64,000 nt of DNA. Source: Deinococcales bacterium (GTDB taxonomy: Bacteria; Deinococcota; Deinococci; Deinococcales; JAAFIG01). The translations under genes were made by a program, and so were the position numbers. The stretch covers positions 20,047 through 84,046 of the forward strand of contig JAAFIG010000016.1 in assembly GCA_013298595.1 (NCBI GenBank), read 5' to 3'. This document shows, piece by piece, positions 51,127 through 64,000 of the stretch. The notes under the pieces are model-generated. The model was not told the DNA's origin. It ran no database searches and saw only the letters and a list, made by a program, of their open reading frames with translations. Each line of letters begins with the position of its first letter. The stretch's first letter is position 1.

Positions 51127-52032
51127 TTACGGATTGCGAAAGTATCCGATGATTACTTCGAGTTTAGCCGCTTCATCGGGCGATAGCATCGGTTCGATTG
51201 TTTCTATTACACCAGCCGAACCAATCACTCGAGGTAATGAAATTGCCACGCCTCGAGCAGCATCCCAAGCGCTGACACTAAGAATTTCATGGCGATTCTC
51301 GAGGATGACTGTGATTAAATGGGCAATAGCTTGTCCAAGACCAAATAAGAACGAGCCTTTTTTGTGCATTGCTTTCGTTACAGCGTACTGCACTGCTTCG
51401 GTGATCTGGTTTTTCGTTTGGTTACTGAGGTGTTTTCCGTGTTGCTCGAGGTATGTTTCAAATGGTACTCCTGCGATTCGCACAGTACTCCATGACATCA
51501 ATGAACTACCACCTTGTTGACCTAGTACGTAACAGTGTACGTTGCTGGGATGTACGCCAACATGCTGAGCAATGGCTTGTCGGAACAGATTAGTCTCGAG
51601 CATTGTGCCTGTGCCAATCACTCTTTTAGCGAAGTTATCACCAAATAGTCGGGCTATGTGGTTGGTCATTAAGTCTATTGGTTGAATTGCATTGATAACA
51701 ATTGCATCTGAGCGGAGTTCGATGGCACGAATCGTGGTTAAGGTTGCCTCGAGCATATTGGTGTTCATTTCGAGTAATTGTTTACCTGAGTAATTGATTT
51801 CACTGCGTTTACCTGCTGCCAAAACAATGATTTGCGAATCGCGTACATCCTCGAGTTCACCAGCTCGTACCTTGGCTGGTTTTGGGCTTCCGCTGTTGAT
51901 ATCTAATGCTTGGGCTTCGGCAATGCTGTGTTCTTTATCCACCAAGACGATTTCCATTGCTTTATTTTGTTGCACCAAAGCATTGGCTATTGCGCCACCA
52001 ACCATTCCAGCTCCGATAATGCTAATTTTCAT
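51127..52032 (-). CDS. lactate/malate dehydrogenase-fold protein lacking catalytic residues
   Basis: 301 residues, collinear with bacterial L-lactate dehydrogenases. The NAD fold (ISIIGAGMVGGAIANAL) and Asp32 in VLVDKEH are kept. Every residue of the chemistry is changed: substrate-loop Arg109 is Gly83, Asn140 is Gln117, Asp168 is Glu146, Arg171 is Leu149, and catalytic His195 is Gln173 (GQQGGS for GEHGD). It therefore probably binds NAD(H) but not as a dehydrogenase; sensing or a scaffold role is inferred. The ATG has GGAGG upstream. A CTGTAAT-N4-TGGTAAT repeat 33 nt before the start ties it to pckG, divergent. Confidence 0.8.
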   Translation of the reverse strand: MKISIIGAGMVGGAIANALVQQNKAMEIVLVDKEHSIAEAQALDINSGSPKPAKVRAGELEDVRDSQIIVLAAGKRSEINYSGKQLLEMNTNMLEATLTTIRAIELRSDAIVINAIQPIDLMTNHIARLFGDNFAKRVIGTGTMLETNLFRQAIAQHVGVHPSNVHCYVLGQQGGSSLMSWSTVRIAGVPFETYLEQHGKHLSNQTKNQITEAVQYAVTKAMHKKGSFLFGLGQAIAHLITVILENRHEILSVSAWDAARGVAISLPRVIGSAGVIETIEPMLSPDEAAKLEVIIGYFRNP

Positions 52033-52065
52033 AAGTACCTCCGAAAGCTAGTCTCGAGGCTTGGC

Positions 52066-52083
52066 ATTACCAGAGCATTACAG
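52066..52083 (-). promoter_or_regulatory. 11-bp-period direct repeat facing the LDH-like gene
   Basis: Read on the minus strand: CTGTAAT (52083-52077), GCTC, TGGTAAT (52072-52066). It lies 33 nt before the start codon, matching the opposite site for pckG. Confidence 0.6.
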
Positions 52084-52100
52084 CAGCGTTCTTAACCTTG

Positions 52101-52118
52101 TGGTAATGCTTTGGTAAT
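52101..52118 (+). promoter_or_regulatory. 11-bp-period direct repeat TGGTAAT facing pckG
   Basis: TGGTAAT (52101-52107), GCTT, TGGTAAT (52112-52118), 34 nt before the pckG ATG. One of seven such sites in 52-64 kb. Confidence 0.65.
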
Positions 52119-52152
52119 TTTGTCATTGCAAACTTTTGACAGGAGGATTTAT

Positions 52153-53982
52153 ATGTCAAAAGAATTCACAAGCAACCTCGAGTTACAACGCTGGGTACAA
52201 GAAACCGCAGCCCTGTGTCAACCAGACCGCATTCATTGGTGCGATGGCTCACAAGCCGAATATGATGCTCTGTGCGATCAAATGGTACAAAGTGGAACAT
52301 TCACCCGCTTAAATCCAGTAAAACGCCCCAACAGTTTCCTGGCGCGTTCAGACATTTCTGATGTCGCAAGAGTCGAGGATCGGACTTTTATTTGCTCGAG
52401 AAGCAAAGCTGACGCAGGACCAACCAATAATTGGCATGAACCTAAAAGCATGAAAACCAAGTTACAGGGCTTATTTTCTGGTTCAATGAGAGGACGCACA
52501 ATGTATGTGATTCCGTTCTGCATGGGTCCAATTGGTAGCCCGATTTCGCATATTGGTGTGGAACTCTCTGATTCGCCATATGTCGTGGTCAATATGCGAA
52601 TCATGACTCGTATGGGCAAAGCCGTACTCGAGGCACTAGGTGATAACGACTTTGTGCATTGTTTACACAGTGTTGGAGCGCCACTCGAGGCTGGGCAGAA
52701 AGATGGAACTTGGGCGTGCAATGTTGACAAGTACATTGTGCATTTTCCAGAGGAACGCAGCATCTGGAGTTTCGGTAGTGGATATGGTGGTAATGCACTG
52801 CTTGGCAAGAAATGCTTTGCTTTACGAATTGCCAGTGTGCTGGCTCGAGAACAAAATTGGTTAGCTGAACATATGCTGATTCTTGGGGTGAAAGACCCGA
52901 ACGGCGAAAAAACATTTGTCGCAGCAGCTTTCCCCAGTGCGTGTGGCAAAACCAATTTTGCGATGCTCATACCACCTAAACCATTCACTGATGATGGTTG
53001 GGAAATCAGTACGGTTGGTGATGACATTGCATGGATTAAACCCGATACGACAGGACAACTCCGTGCCATCAACCCAGAAGCAGGATTCTTTGGGGTTGCA
53101 CCAGGCACAAATTACGAATCCAACCCAAACGCCATGAAAAGCATTCTCGAGAACACAATTTTTACCAATGTCGCCCTAACCGACGATGGGGATGTCTGGT
53201 GGGAAGGTATGACACCAACACCACCCACCCATTTGATTGACTGGACAGGACAAGACTGGACTCCAGATTGTGGACGCAAAGCGGCTCATCCAAACTCGAG
53301 ATTCACTGCTCCAATATCACAATGCCCAGTGATAGACCCAGCGTATAACGACCCTGCTGGCGTACCAATTTCTGCTTTTATCTTCGGGGGACGACGCTCG
53401 AGTGTCGTGCCACTTGTCTACCAAAGTTTTAACTGGACTTATGGGGTGTATGCCGCTGCGACAATGGGCAGCGAAACCACAGCGGCTGCTATTGGTGCAA
53501 CAGGTGCGGTGCGCCGTGACCCATTTGCGATGCTCCCATTTTGTGGGTATCACATGGGCGATTACTTCAACCACTGGGTGCAACTCGGACGCGAATTACC
53601 CAATCCTCCACGGATATTTAATGTCAACTGGTTTCGCAAAGACGAACACGGCAAGTTCTTATGGCAAGGCTTTGGCGAGAATATGCGTGTCTTAAAATGG
53701 ATTGTTGAACGCGCTCGAGGTCATGCCACCAGTGTCGAAAGTGTCCTGGGTTGGGTACCAAGATTTGAAGACATGGACTGGCGCGGACTCGAGATCAGTA
53801 AAACCCAATTCGAGCAGTTAATCAGTGTGGACAGAGAAGCATGGCAACAAGAAATTGCTTCGCATGACGAATTGTTTGTGAAACTCTATGACCGTTTGCC
53901 TAAGGAATTTATTTTCATCCGTGAATTGATGCTCAGTGCGTTATGGCGTTCACCAGAAAAAAGCGAATTGGCACACGAGTGA
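52153..53982 (+). CDS. pckG: phosphoenolpyruvate carboxykinase (GTP)
   Basis: 609 residues, full length for the GTP-dependent class. It converts oxaloacetate and GTP to phosphoenolpyruvate, GDP and CO2. [14 protein letters not shown] is the kinase-1a P-loop with the reactive Cys of the GTP enzymes. [10 protein letters not shown] is the kinase-2 motif and [14 protein letters not shown] follows. [13 protein letters not shown] carries substrate Arg residues. AGGAGG lies 6 nt before ATG 52153. It is controlled by the TGGTAAT repeat upstream and could set anaplerotic or gluconeogenic flux within the same response as its neighbours. Confidence 0.95.
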
Positions 53983-53986
53983 GTTG

Positions 53987-54088
53987 TTAGGAACTCCCCG
54001 CCTTCGGCGACCCCCTCGTTAAGGGGGTTTAGGTAGTGCCAACCCCCTCAATGAGGGGATCCGCGATCCGCGCTGGGGGGAGTTCTAA
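53987..54088. repeat. 102-bp imperfect palindromic element
   Basis: Ends GGAACTCCCC and GGGGAGTTC are inverted, flanked by TTAG and TAA that extend the match. Inside are nested inverted stretches (ACCCCCTCGTTAAGGGGGT and CCCCTCAATGAGGGG). The element folds into a branched hairpin and carries no gene. It lies between pckG and the transporter gene. Confidence 0.55.
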
Positions 54089-54124
54089 CCGCGCATGGTT
54101 TTCTATGTCCATCTCGAGGTTCTT

Positions 54125-55732
54125 ATGTTGGCACTCTTAAAAGACAATCCCTTACTGGTGCTTTTTCTCGTCTCGAGCCTAGGTTTTTTGCTGGGGCGGG
54201 TAAAAATCGCGGGGTTCTCTTTGGGAATTGCCGCTGTTTTATTTGTGGGTTTGGCTTTTGGCAGTTTGGATGCCGAATTAAAACTCCCTGAAATTGTGCA
54301 ACGCCTTGGTTTGGTGTTGTTTGTGTACACGATAGGACTCTCGAGTGGTACGGGATTTTTTCGTAGCCTAGGGCAGCGTGGCTTGCGTGATAACGCCTTG
54401 GTGCTGGGTGTACTTGTGCTGGCAGTGCTTTTCTTGGGTGTGTTGCGTCGTGTGTTGAATCTCGAGCCGAGTTTAATCGCTGGGGTATTCGCGGGTGCGC
54501 TGACCAATACACCAGCTCTGGCAGGGGTTCTCGAGGCACTCAAAGGCTCGAGTAGCGAGTCTCTTCCTGTACTTGGTTATAGCGTGACATACCCGATGGG
54601 TGTGATTGCTATGTTGCTTTGCATTGGAGTCCTCGAGCGATTCTGGAAAGTAGACATGAAACTCGAATCCGCTCGAGTTGCTGGTTTTGCAGCCACAGGC
54701 TTAAAAAGTGTTTCGGTTCTTGTGAATAAGCCAGAAGTCATCGGTCTATCTGTGGTCAAATTAGCACAAACGGAAAAGTGGAAAGTGCTTTTTGCACGGC
54801 ATCGGCGTGGGGAAATTGAAACACTGGTTTGCCCCGAAACGCAACTAGAACTGGGCGATGTGATTACCCTAATTGGTTCAGAAAAAGCCGTTTCGGACAG
54901 TATTGCTAGGCTTGGTGAGGCAATTCCAACCACTTTAGAATTAAACCGCAGCCATTTTGATTACCGCAGAATTTTTGTTTCAAACCAAAAAATTGCAGGA
55001 CGCAGCTTACTCGAGTTGCAATTACCACAGCGTTTTGGTGTGCTAATCACTCGAGTCCGCCGAGGTGATACCGAATTCTTACCCAACAAAGACACGGTTC
55101 TTGAGCTTGGAGACCGTGTAAGGGTTGTTTGTGCGCCAGAGCAAATGAATACCATCTCGAGTTACCTTGGCGATTCGTACCAGCACTTATCTGAAATTGA
55201 TGTCCTCAGTTTTGGATTAGGAATTGCACTTGGATTACTGCTCGGAAGTCTAAAGATTCCTCTGCCAAACGGTGGTCACTTTGAACTTGGCATTGCAGGT
55301 GGCACACTGATTGTTGGTTTATTGCTTGGCTGGAAAGAACGTTTTTTGGGTGTGTTATGGCAAATTCCGTACAGTGCTAACCTGACCTTACGCCAAATTG
55401 GAATTGTGCTTTTTCTAGCAGGAGTAGGCACACGAAGCGGTTTTGCTTTTGGACAAACCGTATTCTCGAGCCTTGGGCTAACCCTTTTTTTACTTGGAGC
55501 AATGGTCACAAGTGTTGTCGCAATTACGCTGCTCTTTTTAACGCATAAGCTCTTTCGTATTCCATTTCCAATTGCGATTGGAATGCTGGCAGGGCTGCAA
55601 ACCCAACCTGCGGTACTTGCCTTTGCCACCGAACGAAGCGGTAATGACTTACCCAATCAGGGATACGCCACGGTGTACCCAATGGCAATGATTGCCAAGA
55701 TACTCCTCGCGCAATTGCTGCTGACACTGTAA
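54125..55732 (+). CDS. AAE-type transporter (aspartate:alanine exchanger family) with two TrkA-C domains
   Basis: About 535 residues. Two blocks of five to six membrane spans (residues 1-165 and 365-535) each carry the YidE/YbjL duplication motif: VYTIGLSSGTGFF with TNTPALAGVLEAL in the first, FLAGVGTRSGF with TQPAVLAFA in the second. Both end in a V-x-YPMA/G segment (VTYPMGVIAM, TVYPMAMIAKI). Between them two TrkA-C ligand-binding domains include LELGDVITLIG and LELGDRVRVVC. The substrate is probably an anionic amino acid or dicarboxylate, by family. ATG 54125 has GAGG upstream; ATG 54095 is in frame. Confidence 0.8.
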   Translation: MLALLKDNPLLVLFLVSSLGFLLGRVKIAGFSLGIAAVLFVGLAFGSLDAELKLPEIVQRLGLVLFVYTIGLSSGTGFFRSLGQRGLRDNALVLGVLVLAVLFLGVLRRVLNLEPSLIAGVFAGALTNTPALAGVLEALKGSSSESLPVLGYSVTYPMGVIAMLLCIGVLERFWKVDMKLESARVAGFAATGLKSVSVLVNKPEVIGLSVVKLAQTEKWKVLFARHRRGEIETLVCPETQLELGDVITLIGSEKAVSDSIARLGEAIPTTLELNRSHFDYRRIFVSNQKIAGRSLLELQLPQRFGVLITRVRRGDTEFLPNKDTVLELGDRVRVVCAPEQMNTISSYLGDSYQHLSEIDVLSFGLGIALGLLLGSLKIPLPNGGHFELGIAGGTLIVGLLLGWKERFLGVLWQIPYSANLTLRQIGIVLFLAGVGTRSGFAFGQTVFSSLGLTLFLLGAMVTSVVAITLLFLTHKLFRIPFPIAIGMLAGLQTQPAVLAFATERSGNDLPNQGYATVYPMAMIAKILLAQLLLTL

Positions 55733-55744
55733 TGCCGTGGTAAT
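55727..55744 (+). promoter_or_regulatory. 11-bp-period direct repeat before the universal stress gene
   Basis: CTGTAAT (55727-55733), GCCG, TGGTAAT (55738-55744). It overlaps the transporter stop codon and lies 32 nt before ATG 55777. Confidence 0.6.
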
Positions 55745-55776
55745 GCCGTTGCAGCAAACTCGAGACAGGAGGAACT

Positions 55777-56241
55777 ATGATTTTAGTCGCCCTAGACGGA
55801 ACTCAAGGCAGTTGGAATGCTCTGGATCAAGCTATTGCTGTTTCAACCAATCCACTCGAACTTTGGTATTTGGTTCATGTCATTCCAGACCCAATGCCAC
55901 TCCATGCACGTTGGTTCGCCCCTGCCATGCACCAAGAAATCGAACTACAACGCCGAACATCGAATCGGCTTGGGATGCAAATCCTCGAGACTGGCAAACA
56001 ACGCATCCAAGCTAAACTCGGGATTCACACCCAAATACAAACCAGGCTCGAAGAAGCCTACGACCGCAGTGTTGGGCAGACCTTAGCCAGAATCATCAAA
56101 GATGAACAGCCGCATTTGGTTGTGCTTGGCGCTCATGGTGAACATCCCGAAATCAATGATCTTGGGCGCACGGCTGCATGGGTAGCACAACACGAGAAGA
56201 ACAACACACTGATTGTGCATCGAATAGGAGAACAGGTATGA
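55777..56241 (+). CDS. universal stress protein (UspA family)
   Basis: 154 residues. ILVALDGTQGSWNALDQAI opens the fold, and HLVVLGAHGEH with LGRTAAWVAQHEKNNTLIVH gives the G-x-H-G and terminal ATP-site segments; the usual G-2x-G-9x-G(S/T) motif is altered, so nucleotide binding is uncertain. AGGAGG precedes the ATG. It heads an operon: its stop overlaps the start of the DsbA-like gene, and the CBS gene follows. A TGGTAAT repeat lies upstream. Confidence 0.8.
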   Translation: MILVALDGTQGSWNALDQAIAVSTNPLELWYLVHVIPDPMPLHARWFAPAMHQEIELQRRTSNRLGMQILETGKQRIQAKLGIHTQIQTRLEEAYDRSVGQTLARIIKDEQPHLVVLGAHGEHPEINDLGRTAAWVAQHEKNNTLIVHRIGEQV

Positions 56242-56948
56242 ATGTCAAGGTTTTCGTTTCAGTGCTGGTAGTAATAGCTGTACTTGGCGTTGGGATTGTG
56301 ATGCTGAACTTGCGTCCAAGCTCGAGCAACATCACTTCTGGCAGCAAAACTGTAATGTATATCAGCGGTGGTATTAACCGCACGGTGAGCCTTCGTAAGG
56401 TTACTGTTGATGCCTTTGTTGGCGCTCGGTTTATCAGTGGCAAGACAGATGCACCTAACACCATTGTCGAGTTCTCGGATTACCAATGCCCTGCTTGTGC
56501 CATGTTTGCCACGCAAATCCAACCTGAATTCAAAACACGATTACTCGAGACAGGCAAGGTTCGTTTTGCGTACCGAGATTTTCCATTGCCACAGCATCAG
56601 AATGCAAAAATCACTGCGGTAGCCGCTGCTTGCGCCAATCTACAAGGTCGGTTTGAACCGATGAACCAAATCTTATTTCGCGCTCAGAACCAGTGGGACA
56701 GCTTAAGTCCAAATCTTGCCAAAGAAAAATTAAAAGAACTAGCCACCAATACTGGTGTGAACCAAAAAGAATTTGCAACCTGTCTCTCGAGCCAACAATT
56801 TGATGCTGCCATCGAAGCTGACCAAGCGGCTGGTAACGCGGTGCAACTCGAGGCAACACCATCGTTTGTGGTCAATGGTTACTTGGTCAGTGGTGCAATA
56901 CCCATCGAGGCATTTGAAGCCATCATCCGTGCAACAAATAACCCATAA
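56238..56948 (+). CDS. DsbA-like membrane-anchored thiol oxidoreductase
   Basis: About 236 residues. One N-terminal span (VFVSVLVVIAVLGVGIVML) anchors it with the domain outside. FSDYQCPACAMF carries the C-x-x-C active site, and QLEATPSFVVNGYLVSGAI has the cis-Pro loop typical of DsbA/Thioredoxin_4 proteins. It probably makes or reshuffles disulfides in envelope proteins. The start at 56238 overlaps the Usp stop as ATGA; a longer frame upstream overlaps Usp and is rejected. Confidence 0.85.
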   Translation: MNVKVFVSVLVVIAVLGVGIVMLNLRPSSSNITSGSKTVMYISGGINRTVSLRKVTVDAFVGARFISGKTDAPNTIVEFSDYQCPACAMFATQIQPEFKTRLLETGKVRFAYRDFPLPQHQNAKITAVAAACANLQGRFEPMNQILFRAQNQWDSLSPNLAKEKLKELATNTGVNQKEFATCLSSQQFDAAIEADQAAGNAVQLEATPSFVVNGYLVSGAIPIEAFEAIIRATNNP

Positions 56949-56958
56949 GGAGGATTGT

Positions 56959-57483
56959 ATGACCACGATTCGCAACACTGGCACTCAACTCGAGCGCACC
57001 GATAAGGAATTTGTGCTGCACTTTGAACATGGTAAGCACAACAGCCCACAAACTCCACTGTTAGCCCGTCAAGGAGGCTATATGACCGTTCATGACATCA
57101 TGACTGCCCATGTGATTACCGTAGACAGTCACACTACTCTACCCACAATCCGAGAAATCCTTGCCGAAAATGCTTTTCGCCATGTGCTGGTCAAAGAACA
57201 CAACCGCATTGTTGGTGTGATTACTGACCGTGATATTCGCCGCGCTTTACCATCGGATGCGACCAGCCTTGCCAAATGGGAAATTCCGTATTTGCTCGAG
57301 AAAACCACCGCCAAAGAACTGATGCACAGCCCTGTAATTACGGTTCTCGAGGATGCACCAGTGCAGTATGCGGCTCGAGTCATGCTCGAGGAAGGAATTT
57401 CGTGCTTGCCTGTGCTGTACGGCGATGAGTTGAAGGGAATTGTCACCTCGAGCGATATTCTGCGAGCTGTGGCGCAAAGCTAA
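56959..57483 (+). CDS. CBS-pair domain protein
   Basis: 174 residues from ATG 56959 (AGGAGG 7 nt upstream). Residues 42-174 are two CBS domains: VHDIMTAHVITVDSHTTL...GVITDRDIRRAL and AKELMHSPVITVLEDAPV...GIVTSSDILRAV. They bind adenine nucleotides and usually act as energy sensors. A second ATG at 57082, at the first CBS domain, has its own AAGGAGG, so a short 133-residue form is likely also made. The 41-residue head is polar and unassigned. It is the third gene of the Usp operon. Confidence 0.82.
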   Translation: MTTIRNTGTQLERTDKEFVLHFEHGKHNSPQTPLLARQGGYMTVHDIMTAHVITVDSHTTLPTIREILAENAFRHVLVKEHNRIVGVITDRDIRRALPSDATSLAKWEIPYLLEKTTAKELMHSPVITVLEDAPVQYAARVMLEEGISCLPVLYGDELKGIVTSSDILRAVAQS

Positions 57484-57510
57484 GGCAGTTCATTGCTCGG
57501 CTCGAGAAGC

Positions 57511-57533
57511 AAAAACCCCGCCATTGCTGACGG
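57511..57533 (-). terminator. intrinsic terminator with GCAA tetraloop
   Basis: On the minus strand CCGTCA, GCAA, TGGCGG then GGTTTTT. It ends the minus-strand transcript that would encode the small membrane peptide. Confidence 0.6.
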
Positions 57534-57842
57534 AGCGTAGCTTCTCTTGGTTTTCAGGTTACTTGAGGACGCTCATGATTAAGGCAATCAAGCCTGTTAT
57601 CAGTGTCACAATGGCTGCCCAGAATTGCGCTTCTTGAGTCACCGTTTTACGGGTTTTTCTTTGGTGCTTGGCGGTGAAACCTTGCGGTTTTTGCCGTTTT
57701 CTGTTACGCTTTTTGTGTGGTATTACAAACACCTCCTTTCACGGAGGCAATTACCCGCACCCTCTTTCTCAGGGTGCGGGTTTCTCCGTTAGGATAATTC
57801 CGACCCATCGGGGTCAAACCATCAACCCAGAGAAGCTACGCT
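57534..57842 (-). ncRNA. candidate type I toxin-like mRNA with complementary ends
   Basis: AGCGTAGCTTCTCTTGGTT (57534-57552) and AACCCAGAGAAGCTACGCT (57824-57842) are inverted with one mismatch. On the minus strand a TATGCT box at 57851-57846 puts the RNA start next to the 57842 arm, and the terminator abuts the 57534 arm. The RNA's first and last bases would pair, as in Hok- and AapA-type toxin mRNAs. Between them are hairpins GACCC/GGGTC, an 11-bp stem at 57753-57781, and CCTCC/GGAGG at 57732-57747 that hides the Shine-Dalgarno. A small transposable element with terminal inverted repeats is the alternative; no target duplication is visible. Confidence 0.4.
57559..57732 (-). CDS. 57-residue basic peptide with C-terminal membrane helix, possible toxin
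   Basis: The frame runs from GTG 57732 through MFVIPHKKRNRKRQKPQ to a membrane segment FWAAIVTLITGLIALIMSVL just before the stop. The first 30 residues are very basic. AAAGGAGG sits right at the start but its best-spaced codon is an ATA four codons on... the true start is therefore uncertain. The ending, T-Q-E-A then a hydrophobic helix and Lys, is like small holin-like type I toxins. CCTCC at 57743-57747 on the mRNA can pair with the Shine-Dalgarno. Confidence 0.4.
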   Translation of the reverse strand: MFVIPHKKRNRKRQKPQGFTAKHQRKTRKTVTQEAQFWAAIVTLITGLIALIMSVLK

Positions 57843-57954
57843 GTGAGCATAACATGGTAATATTTGGTTTGAGAAGTGCGTTGGCTTGAGCCTCTGGTGG
57901 TTGAAATTTCAAAGAAGTCTCGAAAAGCACCAATGCGATTACAAAAAAGTCTGC

Positions 57955-59853
57955 TTAAACTTTCCAAGCCAGCAGCCTTAACCCAACCAGACACACAAAA
58001 ACCGTACCACCTTCATGCGCCACAACTGCTAATGGAAGCGGCACATTGCCAATCAGCGTCAAAATCCCCATCACCGCAATCACAGACAAAGCAAAACCCA
58101 AATTAAAACGCACTGTTTTTGCCGTGGCTCGAGCCAAAACAATGGCATTGCTCAGTTTGCCCAAATCAGATTTCATTAGTACTACATCGGCACTCTCGAG
58201 GGCAACATCCGAGCCACTGCCCATGGCAATGCCAAGGTCAGCCGATGCCAGCGCGGGTGCGTCGTTGATGCCATCACCAATCATGGCAATAGGAGCAGAT
58301 TTTCGTAAGTCTGCAATCACTTCGAGTTTATTTTCGGGCAATAATTCAGCTCGAGTTTCAAGAATGCCTAGGCTGTGGGCAATTTTATCCGCCACGATTT
58401 TTCGGTCTCCTGTCAGCATGACTAAGCGCAACCCTTCTTTTTGCAAGCGCTCGAGGGCGGTTTTGGCTTGGATGCGTGGCGTGTCGGACACAGCAAAAAT
58501 GGCGATGGCTCGAGTGGAAGCGCCAAGAATCATGGTGGTGAAGCCTTGCTGCTCGAGTTCCACAAGTTGATTCTCGAGAACATCTGAAGAAATATAGGCG
58601 GCAGCCATTGCACGATTGCCAATCCAAATTTCTTGTTGCTCGAGAATAGCGACAAAGCCCTTACCCTTGATGGCTTGCGGATTTTGCAGCTCGAGCATCG
58701 CACCGTCATACGCTGCAACAATCGCTTTGGCGACAGGGTGTTCACTGTTCTTCTCTAAACTGGCAGCCAATTGTAAAGCTGTTTCCTCATTCCCCTCGAG
58801 TGCAATGATCTTTTGCAGTTTCATTTTCCCTTCAGTCAGTGTGCCAGTCTTATCAAATGCCAGTATTTTGATTTTGGACAGCGCCTCGAGTGCCGCACCG
58901 CTTTTGAATAACACCCCACCCCTTGCGGCGGCTGCCATTGCTGAGAGCATCGCGGCAGGCGTGGCAATCACCACAGCACATGGACTGACTGCCACCAAGA
59001 AGGTCATGGCTTTGTACCACGCGGCGTTTAGCTCGAGAAGAAAAGCAAAATGAGCAATCAAAAAAACAGTGGGCAAGGACAGCAGCACCAACAGCGTGTA
59101 ACGCCCCTCGAACCGATCAGCAAAGAGTTCAGTTTGGCTTTTTTGAGCTTGGGCATTTTCGACTAAGGCAATCAGTTGAGCGAGGGTACTGTCACCTGCC
59201 CCATGCGTGACCCGCACCAGCAGTACACCAGAATCGTTGTGCGTGCCGCTTCGTACAGCGTCACCCACGGTTTTATCCACGGGGACACTTTCGCCCGTCA
59301 CCGCGCTTTCATTGACGCTCGAGAAACCCTCGAGAATCAGCCCATCGGCAGCAAAGCGTTCTCCGGGACGTACCAGCAGGGTATCACCGACTTGGACTTC
59401 CTCGAGTTTAACTTGGCGTTCGATACCGCTCGAGTCTCGAACAGTCGCGGTTTCGGGTTTGAGTTGCATTAAGGCTCGAATGGCGCTCGAGGTGCGGTTC
59501 ATTGCCCAGTCTTGCAAGGTGTTTGAAAGGGTAAATAAGAATAAGAGGATTGCGCCATCTTCGGTTGCGCCGACACTGAGCGCACCCAAAGCCGCCACGA
59601 CCATCAGCAAGTCCACATCGAGTTTGCGTTTGGTCAATAAGGTGTGTAAGGCAGACCTTGAAGCTGGTATGCCCCCCGCGAGGTAATTGATGCCAAAACC
59701 AGTCCACTCGAGCCACTGAATTTGTAGGGTTAAACCAAGTACACCAAGCAGCAAACCAAGCAGGGTCAGGGCAGTCATCACAAATGCAAGTTGCAATTCG
59801 GTCAACATGGAATCAAAAGGTTCTCGAGCAGTGCGGGGCAAGGTCTTGGTCAT
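57955..59853 (-). CDS. P1B-4-type heavy-metal-transporting ATPase
   Basis: 632 residues. The phosphorylation motif FDKTGTLTEGK, actuator NESAVTGESVPV, and hinge MIGDGINDAPALASADLGIAMG are intact. The metal-site span has SPCAVVIATPAA and the last span AHEGGTVFVCL; SPC plus HEGGT is the signature of subgroup P1B-4 (CtpD/CoaT/PfeT), exporters of cobalt or ferrous iron. No N-terminal metal-binding domain is present, also typical. AGAGGA precedes the ATG. It lies divergent from sufS, consistent with protecting iron-sulfur assembly from metal excess. One TGGTAAT half-site faces it. Confidence 0.88.
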   Translation of the reverse strand: MTKTLPRTAREPFDSMLTELQLAFVMTALTLLGLLLGVLGLTLQIQWLEWTGFGINYLAGGIPASRSALHTLLTKRKLDVDLLMVVAALGALSVGATEDGAILLFLFTLSNTLQDWAMNRTSSAIRALMQLKPETATVRDSSGIERQVKLEEVQVGDTLLVRPGERFAADGLILEGFSSVNESAVTGESVPVDKTVGDAVRSGTHNDSGVLLVRVTHGAGDSTLAQLIALVENAQAQKSQTELFADRFEGRYTLLVLLSLPTVFLIAHFAFLLELNAAWYKAMTFLVAVSPCAVVIATPAAMLSAMAAAARGGVLFKSGAALEALSKIKILAFDKTGTLTEGKMKLQKIIALEGNEETALQLAASLEKNSEHPVAKAIVAAYDGAMLELQNPQAIKGKGFVAILEQQEIWIGNRAMAAAYISSDVLENQLVELEQQGFTTMILGASTRAIAIFAVSDTPRIQAKTALERLQKEGLRLVMLTGDRKIVADKIAHSLGILETRAELLPENKLEVIADLRKSAPIAMIGDGINDAPALASADLGIAMGSGSDVALESADVVLMKSDLGKLSNAIVLARATAKTVRFNLGFALSVIAVMGILTLIGNVPLPLAVVAHEGGTVFVCLVGLRLLAWKV

Positions 59854-59948
59854 GATGAATTGTCCTCTCTAAATGGGCAAAATGGTTGTGTTGCACATGA
59901 CTTGAGTATTCAAGTCGGATTACTGCAAGCCAACCCTAACCGTGCTGC

Positions 59949-59955
59949 ATTACCA
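59949..59955 (-). promoter_or_regulatory. single TGGTAAT half-site facing the metal ATPase gene
   Basis: TGGTAAT on the minus strand, 95 nt from the ATPase start. No second unit at 11 bp is recognisable, so it is weaker evidence than the paired sites. Confidence 0.35.
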
Positions 59956-59971
59956 CAGCGTTGCTTAGGAT

Positions 59972-59989
59972 TGGTAATGGCTTGGTAAT
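59972..59989 (+). promoter_or_regulatory. 11-bp-period direct repeat TGGTAAT before sufS
   Basis: TGGTAAT (59972-59978), GGCT, TGGTAAT (59983-59989), ending 23 nt before ATG 60013. No Shine-Dalgarno is seen, so this places the repeat over the -35 of a short-leader promoter. Confidence 0.65.
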
Positions 59990-60012
59990 CAAAAAGTGAG
60001 ATTGTCCTACCA

Positions 60013-61233
60013 ATGAAACCCTTTATCTCATCATCAGATTTCCCTTTGCTCGAGCAACCAGTCAACGGTAAGCGCTTGGTATATTTGGATTCGACAGCCA
60101 CAAGCCTCAAACCAAAAGTTGTTCTCGAGGCAATGGACAACTATTACCGCCATGTCGGAGCAAATGTGCATCGGGGCGTGTACAGCCTGAGCAGTCAAGC
60201 CACGGATTTGTATGAAATGGCTCGAGTTTCGGTAGCGCGTTTGATTAGCGCAGCCCAACCCGAGAGCCTTGTTTTTACGCGCAACACCACCGAAGGCATC
60301 AACCTTGTGGCATACGCTTGGGGTTTAAAAAATCTTTTGCCAGATGATGAAATTGTTGTTTCTGAACTCGAGCATCACTCGAATCTTGTGCCGTGGCATT
60401 TGGTGGCTGGGTATCGGGGTGCAAAAGTCAAAGCCATTCGTATGACCACAGATGGTCAACTTGACTTGGAGCATTACGCCAGTCTTTTGCAATCTGGCAA
60501 AGTCAAAATGGTGGCAATTGCCCATGTTTCCAATGCGCTTGGCACAATTCATCCAATTCAAAAGATCGTACAAATGGCGCACCAAGCAGGGGCATTGTGT
60601 TTGGTGGATGGCGCTCAGAGCGTGCCGCATTTACAGGTAGATGTGCAGGATATTGGCGCGGATTTCTATGCTTTCTCCGGTCATAAAATGCTTGCACCAA
60701 CCGGTATTGGTGTGCTGTATGGCAAGCTCGAGGTTCTCAAAGCCATGCCTCCATTCTTGGGTGGCGGTGACATGATAGACCAAGTTTTTCCTGACCACTC
60801 GAGTTACGCCGAGCCGCCCATGCGCTTTGAAGCTGGCACACCCGCCATTGCCGAAGCAATCGGGCTGGGCGCGGCTGCCGAATACCTGATGGATTTAGGT
60901 ATGGCTCGAGTTCAAGCCCATGAGCAAGCACTGACGGTGTATGCGCTCGAGCAATTGGATCAATTCGAGGGTGTGACCACCTACGGCACACGAGGAGCAA
61001 ACCGGAGTGCAGTAATTGCTTTTAATCTCGAGAATGTTCACCCGCATGATGTCGCCACGTTCTTAGATGCAGAAGGGATTTGTGTTCGGGCTGGGCATCA
61101 TTGCGCCCAACCTGCCATGCGAGCCTTGGGGGTGCAATCCACTGCTCGAGCCAGTTTTGGGATTTACAACACCAAAGAAGATGTAGATGCGTTGGTGGAA
61201 TCCCTAAAACACTGCATCAAATTTTTTCAGTAG
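60013..61233 (+). CDS. sufS: cysteine desulfurase SufS
   Basis: 406 residues, class V aminotransferase fold, group II desulfurase. YLDSTATSLKP opens the protein, SELEHHSNLVPW is the PLP-stacking His region, and FSGHKMLAPTGIGVLYG holds the PLP lysine. CVRAGHHCAQPAMRALG holds the catalytic Cys that carries persulfide. It supplies sulfur for iron-sulfur clusters, passing it to SufU, whose gene converges on it with a 17-nt overlap. It is monocistronic behind a TGGTAAT repeat, unlike the usual sufCBDSU operon. Confidence 0.95.
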   Translation: MKPFISSSDFPLLEQPVNGKRLVYLDSTATSLKPKVVLEAMDNYYRHVGANVHRGVYSLSSQATDLYEMARVSVARLISAAQPESLVFTRNTTEGINLVAYAWGLKNLLPDDEIVVSELEHHSNLVPWHLVAGYRGAKVKAIRMTTDGQLDLEHYASLLQSGKVKMVAIAHVSNALGTIHPIQKIVQMAHQAGALCLVDGAQSVPHLQVDVQDIGADFYAFSGHKMLAPTGIGVLYGKLEVLKAMPPFLGGGDMIDQVFPDHSSYAEPPMRFEAGTPAIAEAIGLGAAAEYLMDLGMARVQAHEQALTVYALEQLDQFEGVTTYGTRGANRSAVIAFNLENVHPHDVATFLDAEGICVRAGHHCAQPAMRALGVQSTARASFGIYNTKEDVDALVESLKHCIKFFQ

Positions 61234-61642
61234 GTTCGAGCATGACTTTCAAAGTCTGCCATGCCAGCGAAGCACACTTGACTCGAGCGTGAAGTTTCGC
61301 CACGCCTCGCAGTGCGGCAGCATCGCCGAGCGATTCGGCAGGAGTTTCGCCTTTCATCATCGTGTGAAAATCCTTGGTTAGCTCGAGTGCAGTCCCCACC
61401 GTTTGCCCCTCGAGCAGCACTGTCATCAACGAAGCACTGGCTTGTGAAATGGCGCAGCCAACGCCCGTAAATTTAGCTTTGACAATGATTCCCGCTTCGA
61501 TTCTCAGGTGTAGCTCGAGTTCATCGCCGCAACTTGGGTTGTGTCCCCTTTGGTACATGGTGGCATTCTCGAGTTCACCTTTGTTGCGTGGGTGTTGTGA
61601 ATGCTCGAGGATCACTTGGCGGTAAATATCGGTGAGGTTCAC
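61217..61642 (-). CDS. sufU: SufU-type sulfur acceptor/iron-sulfur assembly protein
   Basis: About 141 residues. NPSCGDELELHL, GVGCAISQASASLM and RVKCASLAWQ provide the three conserved Cys, with the Asp in CGD, that bind zinc and accept sulfur from SufS. The start is GTG 61642 (MNLTDIYRQVILEHS), fixed by TACACT 6 nt upstream; a longer open frame upstream is not supported. Its 3' end overlaps the sufS 3' end by 17 nt on the opposite strand. Confidence 0.93.
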   Translation of the reverse strand: MNLTDIYRQVILEHSQHPRNKGELENATMYQRGHNPSCGDELELHLRIEAGIIVKAKFTGVGCAISQASASLMTVLLEGQTVGTALELTKDFHTMMKGETPAESLGDAAALRGVAKLHARVKCASLAWQTLKVMLEPTEKI

Positions 61643-61648
61643 GTTACT

Positions 61649-61654
61649 AGTGTA
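61649..61654 (-). promoter_or_regulatory. -10 box TACACT before sufU
   Basis: TACACT on the minus strand is 6 nt before GTG 61642 with no Shine-Dalgarno. Confidence 0.55.
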
Positions 61655-61663
61655 GCAAATGTT

Positions 61664-61681
61664 TGGTAATGCCTTGGTAAC
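61664..61681 (+). promoter_or_regulatory. 11-bp-period direct repeat between sufU and the membrane gene
   Basis: TGGTAAT (61664-61670), GCCT, TGGTAAC (61675-61681). The orientation points to the plus-strand gene at 61768. It is 21 nt upstream of the sufU start and could also affect that promoter. Confidence 0.6.
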
Positions 61682-61767
61682 TTCTGCCTGTGAAACTGAT
61701 TCATCTTGCTCGAGGCGGAGGTACACGTATGAAGAATCGGTTTGTGACAGCTTATCAAAGGAGATAT

Positions 61768-62148
61768 ATGAATACTTGGCGAATCATGTTGGCAGTCATC
61801 ATCGTGCTGCATGGCTTAGTCCACATCATGGGTGTGGTGTCGTACTTAAAATTAGGCGAAGTGCAAGGTTTACCTTACAAAACCACGGTACTGGACGGAC
61901 GTGTCAACCTTGGTAATAGTGGTATTGGTGTGTACGGCGCACTTTGGGGTGTGGCTGCACTTGGGTTTATTGCTGCTGCCATCGGCATACTTCTCAACTC
62001 GAGTTGGTACTTGCCACTGCTGACTGTTGCAACTGTGTTCTCGTTGCTTCTGACGGTTTTGGACTTCAATGTGGCAATGGCAGGTGTTGTTGTCAATACT
62101 GCCTTGCTGATTTTGGTTTGGATCGCCCCACGTTTCTCGAGTTCGTAA
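61768..62148 (+). CDS. small four-span membrane protein, unknown
   Basis: About 126 residues with four hydrophobic segments (IMLAVIIVLHGLVHIMGVV, IGVYGALWGVAALGFIAAAIG, YLPLLTVATVFSLLLTVL, AGVVVNTALLILVWIA). Between the first two is a short loop, KLGEVQGLPYKTTVLDG. HGLVH near the first span could bind metal or heme. ATG 61768 has AAAGGAG upstream. An in-frame ATG at 61729 with GGAGG also exists and would add 13 residues. No named family recognised. Its context is the TGGTAAT-controlled block. Confidence 0.6.
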   Translation: MNTWRIMLAVIIVLHGLVHIMGVVSYLKLGEVQGLPYKTTVLDGRVNLGNSGIGVYGALWGVAALGFIAAAIGILLNSSWYLPLLTVATVFSLLLTVLDFNVAMAGVVVNTALLILVWIAPRFSSS

Positions 62149-62198
62149 ACGCATCAAGTACAACACTTGAGCCGTCAAAAATCACCATAGGCTCGGAT

Positions 62199-62216
62199 TG
62201 GTAATGCTCTGGTAAT
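62199..62216 (+). promoter_or_regulatory. 11-bp-period direct repeat TGGTAAT before the 62239 gene
   Basis: TGGTAAT (62199-62205), GCTC, TGGTAAT (62210-62216), 22 nt before ATG 62239. An AATACT at 62230-62235 could be the -10, so the repeat would cover the -35. Confidence 0.65.
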
Positions 62217-62238
62217 TGATAAGCACAAAAATACTGGT

Positions 62239-63669
62239 ATGCAAATTGATACAACAATTTTTGCCCATCCAACCATCATTCAAGGCGGGATGGGTGTTGC
62301 CATTTCCAATTGGCGTTTAGCTCGAGCCGTTTCGCAACTCGGGCAACTTGGTGTGGTTTCAGGAACGGGCTTAGATAATGTGATGATTCGGCGTTTACAA
62401 GACGGTGACAAGAATGGTTATGTGCGAATGGCACTCGAGGAATTTCCAAATCAAGCCTTGGTAAAAACAGCGCTCGAGAAGTATTTTGTGGCAAACGAAA
62501 AGAAACACGCTTACAAAGTCGCTTCGTTACCCTCGAGTCTCGGAGCGATGGGAACAGATTTTTTAAGTGTTCTCGCGGCTTTTGTTGAAGTCTGGCTGGC
62601 TAAACAAGGTCACAACGGAATGGTCGGAATTAACCTCCTGACCAAGATTCAGACGCACACATTGCCAACATTGTATGGCGCATTGCTGGCAAACGTGGAT
62701 TATGTGCTGATGGGCGCTGGTATTCCACGTGATATTCCAGATGTTCTCGAGAAACTGAGTCTAGGAGGGCCTGCCACACTTAAACTCGAGGTGAGCGGCG
62801 CACTGCAAGGCGAATCGTTTACGCTCGAGTTTGATCCGAATGAAATTCAGGCTGCGCCTCGTCTGCTTACACGCCCTTATTTCCTGCCGATTATTGCCTC
62901 GAATGTCCTAGCAACGATGTTGGCACGTAAGTGCAGCACAGGAATTTCGGGTTTTATTGTCGAAATGCCCAGTGCTGGTGGTCACAATGCCCCACCACGC
63001 GGCGAAGTGCATTTGGATGGACTTGGACAACCTATTTATGGCACTCGAGACGAAGTTGACTTGGTGCAACTCAAAGCCTTGGGGTATCCGTTCTGGTTAG
63101 CGGGCGGCACAGGCTCGCCACAAGCGCTACAAACTGCCTTAAAGCAAGGCGCAACAGGAATTCAGGTTGGAACACTGTTTGCCTATGCCCAAGAGTCAGG
63201 CTTTGCCCCTGAACTTAAACAAGCGGTTCTCGAGCAAATCCAAACCAATGCTATTCGGATTTTTACTGACCCTCGAGCCTCACCAACAGGCTTTCCATTC
63301 AAAGTCGTCGAAGTTCCCAACACGCTCTCGGAAAATACGGTTTTTGCAACTCGAGCTAGGGTTTGCGACCTTGGGTATTTACGCGAAGCCTACCGATTGG
63401 AGGATGGCAGTATTGGTTTTCGCTGCGCTTCTGAGCCAGTTACAACGTACCTAAAAAAAGGCGGTAAGCTCGAGGACACCATCGGACGAAAATGCCTCTG
63501 CAATGCACTCATGGCAAGTGCGGATTACCCACAGACTCGAGGGAAAAGCCTTGAGCCAGCACTGGTCACAAGCGGTGATGAGCTGCTGCATATGAACGAT
63601 TTTCTCAAGCAGTACGGCGCAAATTATACCGCCACGGATGTCGTGCAGTATTTACTGCCAGTTGAATAA
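62239..63669 (+). CDS. nitronate monooxygenase-like FMN flavoprotein
   Basis: 476 residues, longer than simple nitronate monooxygenases (about 330-380). The N-terminal IIQGGMGVAISNWRLARAVSQLG and central EMPSAGGHNAPP, then FWLAGGTGSPQALQTALKQGATGIQVGTLFAYAQESG, are the FMN phosphate-binding barrel segments of the 2-nitropropane dioxygenase family. A C-terminal extension of about 120 residues has CLCNALMASADYPQ and may bind another group. Possible roles include detoxifying nitronates or acting as an enoyl-reductase-like enzyme. Its start has no Shine-Dalgarno. Confidence 0.8.
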   Translation: MQIDTTIFAHPTIIQGGMGVAISNWRLARAVSQLGQLGVVSGTGLDNVMIRRLQDGDKNGYVRMALEEFPNQALVKTALEKYFVANEKKHAYKVASLPSSLGAMGTDFLSVLAAFVEVWLAKQGHNGMVGINLLTKIQTHTLPTLYGALLANVDYVLMGAGIPRDIPDVLEKLSLGGPATLKLEVSGALQGESFTLEFDPNEIQAAPRLLTRPYFLPIIASNVLATMLARKCSTGISGFIVEMPSAGGHNAPPRGEVHLDGLGQPIYGTRDEVDLVQLKALGYPFWLAGGTGSPQALQTALKQGATGIQVGTLFAYAQESGFAPELKQAVLEQIQTNAIRIFTDPRASPTGFPFKVVEVPNTLSENTVFATRARVCDLGYLREAYRLEDGSIGFRCASEPVTTYLKKGGKLEDTIGRKCLCNALMASADYPQTRGKSLEPALVTSGDELLHMNDFLKQYGANYTATDVVQYLLPVE

Positions 63670-63674
63670 ACACG

Positions 63675-63692
63675 TGGTAATGCCTTGGTAAT
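63675..63692 (+). promoter_or_regulatory. 11-bp-period direct repeat TGGTAAT before the 63733 gene
   Basis: TGGTAAT (63675-63681), GCCT, TGGTAAT (63686-63692), 40 nt before ATG 63733. The first T of unit 2's spacer follows directly after the previous stop codon region. Confidence 0.65.
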
Positions 63693-63732
63693 GCGAATCG
63701 GTGAACCTTGATGGCATTCAGGAGGATTACCA

Positions 63733-64000
63733 ATGATTCAGACTCATCAACCACCACCCTTTGTTCCCACACCAACTCGAGATTCTGGTGTGGTGCAAGT
63801 TCCTTTGATGGATGCAACCCTCGATAAACGCGGGTTAATTGCGGGTTTACTTTTTTCGGGGGCGCTGACTGCCTTGGTGTTTCTTGGCTCTGAGGGCTTA
63901 CGTGGTTTTGATGGGGCGCTGGCAGGTTATTGCTTTAGTGCTTTGTTTGCCACTTTTGGCATTGTGTATCGGTACGCTGTTTGGTTGCAACGCCCAGCCA
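63733..64000 (+). CDS. membrane protein, 3' end outside window
   Basis: The frame from ATG 63733 begins MIQTHQPPPFVPTPTRDSG, a Pro-rich cytoplasmic head of about 33 residues. Two membrane spans follow (LIAGLLFSGALTALVFLG and ALAGYCFSALFATFGIVYRYAVW). It is open to the last base. AGGAGG lies 8 nt upstream. The family cannot be named from this part; it is expected to belong to the TGGTAAT-controlled set. Confidence 0.65.
   Translation, partial: MIQTHQPPPFVPTPTRDSGVVQVPLMDATLDKRGLIAGLLFSGALTALVFLGSEGLRGFDGALAGYCFSALFATFGIVYRYAVWLQRPA

Follow-up and report, generated by a model that had tools for sequence, protein, structure and literature searches.

The window analyzed here, a 64-kb stretch of the genome of a Deinococcales bacterium (GCA_013298595.1) that runs to the end of contig C8, carries between 52 and 64 kb a set of direct repeats in which two TGGTAAT-like heptamers are separated by 4 nucleotides (nt). 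These pairs stand upstream of genes such as pckG, a usp-dsbA-CBS operon, and sufS (Table 1), and at a probability of roughly 0.8 we read TGGTAAT-N4-TGGTAAT as the predicted operator of a stand-alone SARP-like activator controlling stress and redox genes. A total of seven pairs with an 11-bp period had been listed in the original prediction, and all seven were confirmed at the coordinates in Table 1. Four of these (52101, 59972, 62199, and 63675) are perfect, the pair at 61664 has one mismatch, and those at 52066 (minus strand) and 55727 have a first heptamer, CTGTAAT, with two mismatches. An eighth, degenerate site at 59949 (minus strand; AAGCAACGCTGTGGTAAT), upstream of the P-type ATPase gene, had been overlooked. 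In a scan of spacings from 8 to 30 across the window, seven pairs were found at 11 bp, one at 15, and none elsewhere, making 11 the sole enriched spacing. Matches with up to three mismatches numbered 19, compared to 6.0 ± 2.9 in 100 shuffles, with no shuffle attaining this count, and the composite of repeat and −10 hexamer was matched 7 times versus 0.01 times on average for 300 first-order Markov sequences.

Table 1. Repeat sites, predicted promoter elements, and genes in the window and on contig C9 (C9 coordinates are marked; TSS, transcription start site)
Feature	Position	Strand	Remarks
Direct repeat CTGTAAT-GCTC-TGGTAAT	52066..52083	-	−10 GAGACT 52050-52055; predicted TSS ~52043, 11 nt 5′ of the lactate/malate dehydrogenase-like gene
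Direct repeat TGGTAAT-GCTT-TGGTAAT	52101..52118	+	−10 CAAACT 52129-52134; pckG promoter
Direct repeat CTGTAAT-GCCG-TGGTAAT	55727..55744	+	−10 CAAACT 55755-55760; usp-dsbA-CBS promoter
Degenerate repeat AAGCAAC-GCTG-TGGTAAT	59949..59966	-	−10 TAGGGT 59933-59938, same offset; P-type ATPase promoter, probable
Direct repeat TGGTAAT-GGCT-TGGTAAT	59972..59989	+	−10 GATTGT 60000-60005; sufS promoter, predicted leaderless
Direct repeat TGGTAAT-GCCT-TGGTAAC	61664..61681	+	−10 GAAACT 61692-61697; small-membrane-protein promoter
Direct repeat TGGTAAT-GCTC-TGGTAAT	62199..62216	+	−10 AAAAAT 62227-62232; flavoprotein promoter, predicted leaderless
Direct repeat TGGTAAT-GCCT-TGGTAAT	63675..63692	+	−10 GAACCT 63703-63708; cytochrome-b/molybdopterin-oxidoreductase operon promoter, operon runs onto contig C9
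Site before NarK genes	C9:5550
Site before Usp	C9:9859	-
Site before regulator gene	C9:9902
Lactate/malate dehydrogenase family gene	51127..52032	-	Target
pckG, GTP-dependent phosphoenolpyruvate (PEP) carboxykinase	52153..53982	+	Target; G012 orthologue also has site
usp - dsbA-like - CBS operon	55778..57483	+	Targets
Heavy-metal P-type ATPase	57955..59853	-	Probable target
sufS cysteine desulfurase	60013..61233	+	Target
sufU-like NifU_N gene	61217-61642		Convergent to sufS
Small membrane protein, no Pfam family	61729..62148	+	Target
Nitronate-monooxygenase/FabK-like flavoprotein	62239..63669	+	Target
Cytochrome-b (nitrate reductase gamma-like) gene, 5′ part	63732..64000	+	Remainder on contig C9, L031:21-941
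Stand-alone SARP-like regulator, ~270-300 amino acids	C9:9969-10862 (L031)		Divergent from usp, sites both ways

A −10-like hexamer of the form xAxxxT begins exactly 11 nt past the last base of the repeat, leaving a 10-bp spacer, and it stands at this fixed offset in 7/7 of the mutually unrelated window promoters. Among 37 nonredundant sites from related genomes, gathered irrespective of the −10, the hexamer was found at that offset in 31 and in no more than 2 at any other of 24 offsets (P ~ 2e-33, an optimistic value since some of the promoters are orthologous). With the −10 box placed at −12 to −7, the predicted start of transcription coincides with the start codon at sufS and the flavoprotein gene, the genes that have no Shine-Dalgarno sequence, and predicted leaders at those of the seven reported sites whose genes have one are 10 to 25 nt long. 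At the eighth site this distance is 73 nt, and because it is longer the site is graded as probable only. The repeat had been suggested to cover the −35 in two cases; what we find is not mere overlap but a fixed position relative to the −10, in which the repeat seemingly replaces the −35. Judged from these sequences, the TGGTAAT pair is a genuine promoter element at a fixed distance before the predicted transcription start.

Pattern searches of the 4.58-Mb source genome returned nine matches to the repeat plus −10, all in a cluster on contigs C8 and C9, and every one of the eight exact matches to YKGTAAYGNYNTGGTAAY genome-wide fell in the same cluster. Single-mismatch matches on contigs C1, C21, C23, and C67 were discarded, being inside genes or away from gene starts, and the one on C23 also had no −10. 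The motif was matched 55 times versus once for a reversed-pattern control; a relaxed form (no −10, two mismatches) was dropped as noise, with 119 matches versus 144 in its reversed control. The original prediction proposed conservation upstream of orthologues as a test, and promoters in other genera do retain both the repeat and the −10. The reading as a real regulon marked by 11-bp direct repeats is supported, and the regulon is kept across genera and families; it is a local cluster in the source genome and is dispersed in Meiothermus.

The candidate regulator is encoded on contig C9. A BTAD domain (PF03704) was detected in it across three genera (E = 4e-11, 2.5e-19, and 5.7e-15), together with an OmpR-type N-terminal winged helix (Trans_reg_C, E = 3e-4, 5 bits below the Pfam cutoff). 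Matches of the regulator profile include the DNA-binding domain of SaeR and residues 43 to 284 of AfsR, an alignment to the SARP domain of AfsR spans residues 13 to 252 (E = 4e-6), and the top structural match was EmbR (Z = 13.1 over 208 residues; root mean square deviation of 6.3), with AfsR also among the top matches. Only DNA-binding and BTAD regions were found in the protein, with no receiver domain. Its recognition helix, NNRFRVT..R.R, is present in orthologues and absent from the other BTAD loci of its own genome (20 examined). Orthologues in G012 and a Meiothermus are 46 to 54% identical and occupy the same position opposite usp, with sites in between, and the regulator/usp pair recurs in four lineages: the source genome (G000), G012, Meiothermus, and, with a shortened copy, G003. 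In the last of these (L192; G003:C34) the SARP is cut down to the DNA-binding domain alone and still lies opposite usp with a site. Cysteine pairs (C-x5-C) and, near the C terminus, a CP motif are present in several orthologues that fall outside the main Meiothermus group. These features would fit a sensor of redox state or of metal; the main Meiothermus forms are without them.

A large BTAD-ATPase-TPR protein encoded at 46597-49542 in the window was ranked lower as the regulator, being one of 23 such loci and having a mismatched recognition helix. The 23 BTAD loci of the source genome (L057-L076) lie mostly in open frames of 650 to 1150 amino acids, to our knowledge an unusual number outside Actinobacteria.

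Scored as the repeat with a TGGTAAY second half plus the −10, the motif was present in 16 of the 19 Deinococcota genomes with the regulator versus 1 of the 92 without it (111 genomes; Fisher P = 2e-15, uncorrected for kinship), and this lone genome is G003, which retains only the DNA-binding domain. Within the genus Meiothermus, all 13 genomes with the regulator had the motif, compared to 0/5 without it (P = 1e-4), and this within-genus contrast is the strongest single reason for naming the SARP as the binder. The response regulator that had been proposed for this role is probably wrong, since the protein that is associated with the motif and bears a self-site is a SARP without a receiver domain. 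From the typing as OmpR/PhoB family, the OmpR-type binding geometry is supported, but the candidate regulator combines a winged helix with BTAD and is not a response regulator.

Nearly all that is known of SARPs concerns their role in switching on antibiotic genes in Actinobacteria. The system described here shares with AfsR, ActII-4, PimR, and EmbR an OmpR-type domain followed by BTAD, 11-bp direct repeats at a fixed distance to a weak −10, and a small form without extra domains, and it differs in its phylum, in its heptamer (TGGTAAY), and in its targets, which belong to stress, redox, and carbon metabolism rather than to antibiotic clusters. In the rule drawn from cryo-electron microscopy of AfsR, the repeats are 11 bp apart and the 3′ repeat is 8 bp from the −10; the afs box covers 22 bp, from −40 to −19, and is active where the −35 is poor (PMC10936776). 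The two 11-bp units in our sites stop 6 bp short of the −10, which places them at −40 to −19, in register with the afs box. Compared to a SARP operator, defined by 11-bp direct repeats about 8 bp from the −10, the sites agree in period, 11 being the only one, and in afs-box frame.

We infer that the SARP-like protein binds the repeat and acts as an activator, most likely, by homology with these systems, as a side-by-side dimer holding RNA polymerase on weak −10 promoters. Lying head to tail on heptamers spaced by one helical turn, the dimer would take the place of a −35 element and recruit RNA polymerase to the weak xAxxxT starting 11 nt after the repeat. At most targets, transcription would begin 0 to 29 nt upstream of the start codon, without a leader at sufS and the flavoprotein gene. 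The regulator would control the opposite usp, probably itself, and a set of genes for stress and redox functions. Fold and promoter geometry are known already; the operator, regulon, phylum, and physiological role are undescribed in the papers that we found, and a literature search for a Deinococcus or Meiothermus regulon with Usp, or for SARP or BTAD with Usp in Deinococcus, returned nothing relevant. The operator (repeat, 10-bp spacer, and −10) is sharp enough for targets and starts of transcription to be predicted in cultured Meiothermus, and through sites and phylogenetic co-occurrence a SARP is linked in Deinococcota with a regulon for stress and energy.

Several observations weigh against the SARP as the binder. 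Three genomes (G004, G008, and G047) have a regulator homologue without motif matches, and the motif-positive genomes are mostly Meiothermus and thus not independent. The AlphaFold model is weak (mean pLDDT of 58) and poor outside residues 100 to 250, unrelated helical-repeat proteins can also reach a Z score of ~13, and no recognizable sensor domain was found in the regulator. Its own site in the source genome has the −10 one base nearer; that of the Meiothermus regulator is in a different frame, near the ATG, which could indicate repression there. The regulator gene also lies outside the window, on a contig whose start fits the window end only approximately.

It is possible to assign the repeats instead to an OmpR/PhoB-family response regulator encoded elsewhere, with the SARP beside usp merely another target. 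Direct repeats of 7 bp with a 4-bp spacer are a known target of OmpR-family regulators such as PhoB and Mycobacterium tuberculosis PhoP (PMC4832192), and the −10 offset would suit such a protein. We consider this unlikely, given that the motif tracks the presence of the SARP (the protein whose distribution was compared) across the phylum and inside one genus, and that even the copy reduced to a DNA-binding domain holds its position opposite usp. The candidate also differs from OmpR-family response regulators in having BTAD and no receiver domain, and a scan of cluster genes showed no further BTAD protein except the ATPase-TPR regulator noted above. A promoter class of an alternative sigma factor, with the heptamer pair as an odd −35 region, would account for the exact distance from repeat to −10 but is very improbable: identical heptamers one helical turn apart point to a dimeric helix-turn-helix protein, the −10 keeps the sigma-70 form (A at 2, T at 6), and a related class of another specificity, TTGTAAC-N4-TTGTAAC, shares the geometry in other genomes, as one would expect if the activators form a superfamily. 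Chance, duplication of a promoter segment, or a mobile repeat might be suspected from the grouping of sites in one region of the source genome; this is refuted by flanks that are wholly different from site to site, by orthologous promoters in other genera that keep repeat and −10, and by reversed controls near zero.

Sites in G012 precede usp, pckG, and a CBS protein gene lying divergent from pckG, so that usp, pckG, and CBS are targets common to G012 and the source genome. In Meiothermus, sites precede usp, hsp20, baeRF10, PPDK/PEP synthase, and cytochrome oxidase subunit II (COX2; ba3-like by eye), as well as genes for a cation P-type ATPase, archease, a CoA-binding protein, a PfkB kinase, ferredoxin, hydrolases, VanW, and DUF6544. 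At pckG, six Meiothermus-genus genomes had no site; in two of these six, G037 and G049, both regulator bearing, the PPDK gene carries one. The pckG product and PPDK both make PEP.

A likeness by content to hypoxia and dormancy regulons such as DosR had been noted, and it is strengthened by NarK and the molybdopterin oxidoreductase on contig C9 and by Hsp20, baeRF10, PfkB, ferredoxin, and cation ATPase among the Meiothermus targets. Content shared with DosR/DevR of M. tuberculosis and OsdR of Streptomyces comprises Usp, a small heat shock protein, NarK/nitrate genes, PfkB, ferredoxin, a cation ATPase, PPDK, and a regulator beside usp. The published DosR list includes narK2, ctpF, fdxA, pfkB, hspX, and Rv2629, and that of OsdR includes Usp, PPDK, and nitrate genes; we take Rv2629 to be a baeRF10 protein and several conserved proteins on the list to be Usp or CBS proteins. 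This overlap is striking. We infer low oxygen or a shortage of energy as the signal. DosR and OsdR belong to the response regulators, have palindromic sites, and come with sensor kinases, whereas here a SARP and direct repeats were found and no kinase was seen; in place of the NarL-type response regulator and palindromic Dos box of DosR, the system has direct repeats and a SARP. We tentatively suggest that a dormancy or low-oxygen program with DosR-like gene content arose separately in Deinococcota, run by an activator of the SARP family; the cysteine pairs of this activator (present in several lineages and lost in the main Meiothermus group) might sense redox directly without a sensor kinase. 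Such a program would be a kinase-free parallel to DosR.

DnrS, which acts in nitrate respiration of Thermus thermophilus, is likewise a BTAD regulator from the same phylum with a link to nitrate genes and low oxygen (PMC5748679, PMC7694296). It combines GAF with BTAD and is encoded upstream of the nar operon (PMC5748679); it is described as large, and its DNA binding could not be assayed. The candidate regulator had no GAF match and its gene lies opposite usp, so its architecture is not of the DnrS type; the regulator profile had zero matches in three Thermus genomes, and the motif was found in none of the Thermus genomes. Identity with DnrS was dropped on these grounds, DnrS being set apart by its description and not singled out among Thermus BTAD loci. 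The repeat offers a concrete candidate for the DNA bound by a BTAD regulator of this phylum, in which the site of the related DnrS is still unfound.

Contig C9 opens in the same cytochrome-b gene in which the window and contig C8 end. Window positions 63920-64000 and L031:1-80 represent the same gene with ~5 differences in 79 nt, and the junction is an assembly break at strain variation. After cytochrome-b, C9 encodes a molybdopterin oxidoreductase, ferredoxin, Rieske protein, two NarK-type transporters, a two-domain Usp, and a single-domain Usp, followed by the divergent SARP-like regulator and another Usp. The top NCBIfam scores of the molybdopterin oxidoreductase were to NasC and formate dehydrogenase, both below the cutoff.

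The TTGTAAC-N4-TTGTAAC class, with TAnACT at the same offset, was found in G044, G045, G050, G058, G015, G037, G025, and others (L229-L231), in genomes with and without the regulator. It represents a regulon of its own that shares this geometry. The targets examined for it are two 3-oxoacyl-ACP-synthase-III-like genes and one for a hydrolase, and an assignment as a Pho box was not kept in view of them. The palindrome CTCGAG occurs 430 times in the 64 kb, 33 times the base-composition expectation, compared to 47 for the next palindrome; the observation extends to L031, L123, L052, and L050, with CTCGAG far overrepresented in relatives too, and the palindrome resembles the HIP1 repeat of cyanobacteria. 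GC-rich imperfect inverted repeats that resemble a small mobile repeat element follow pckG at 53985-54095.

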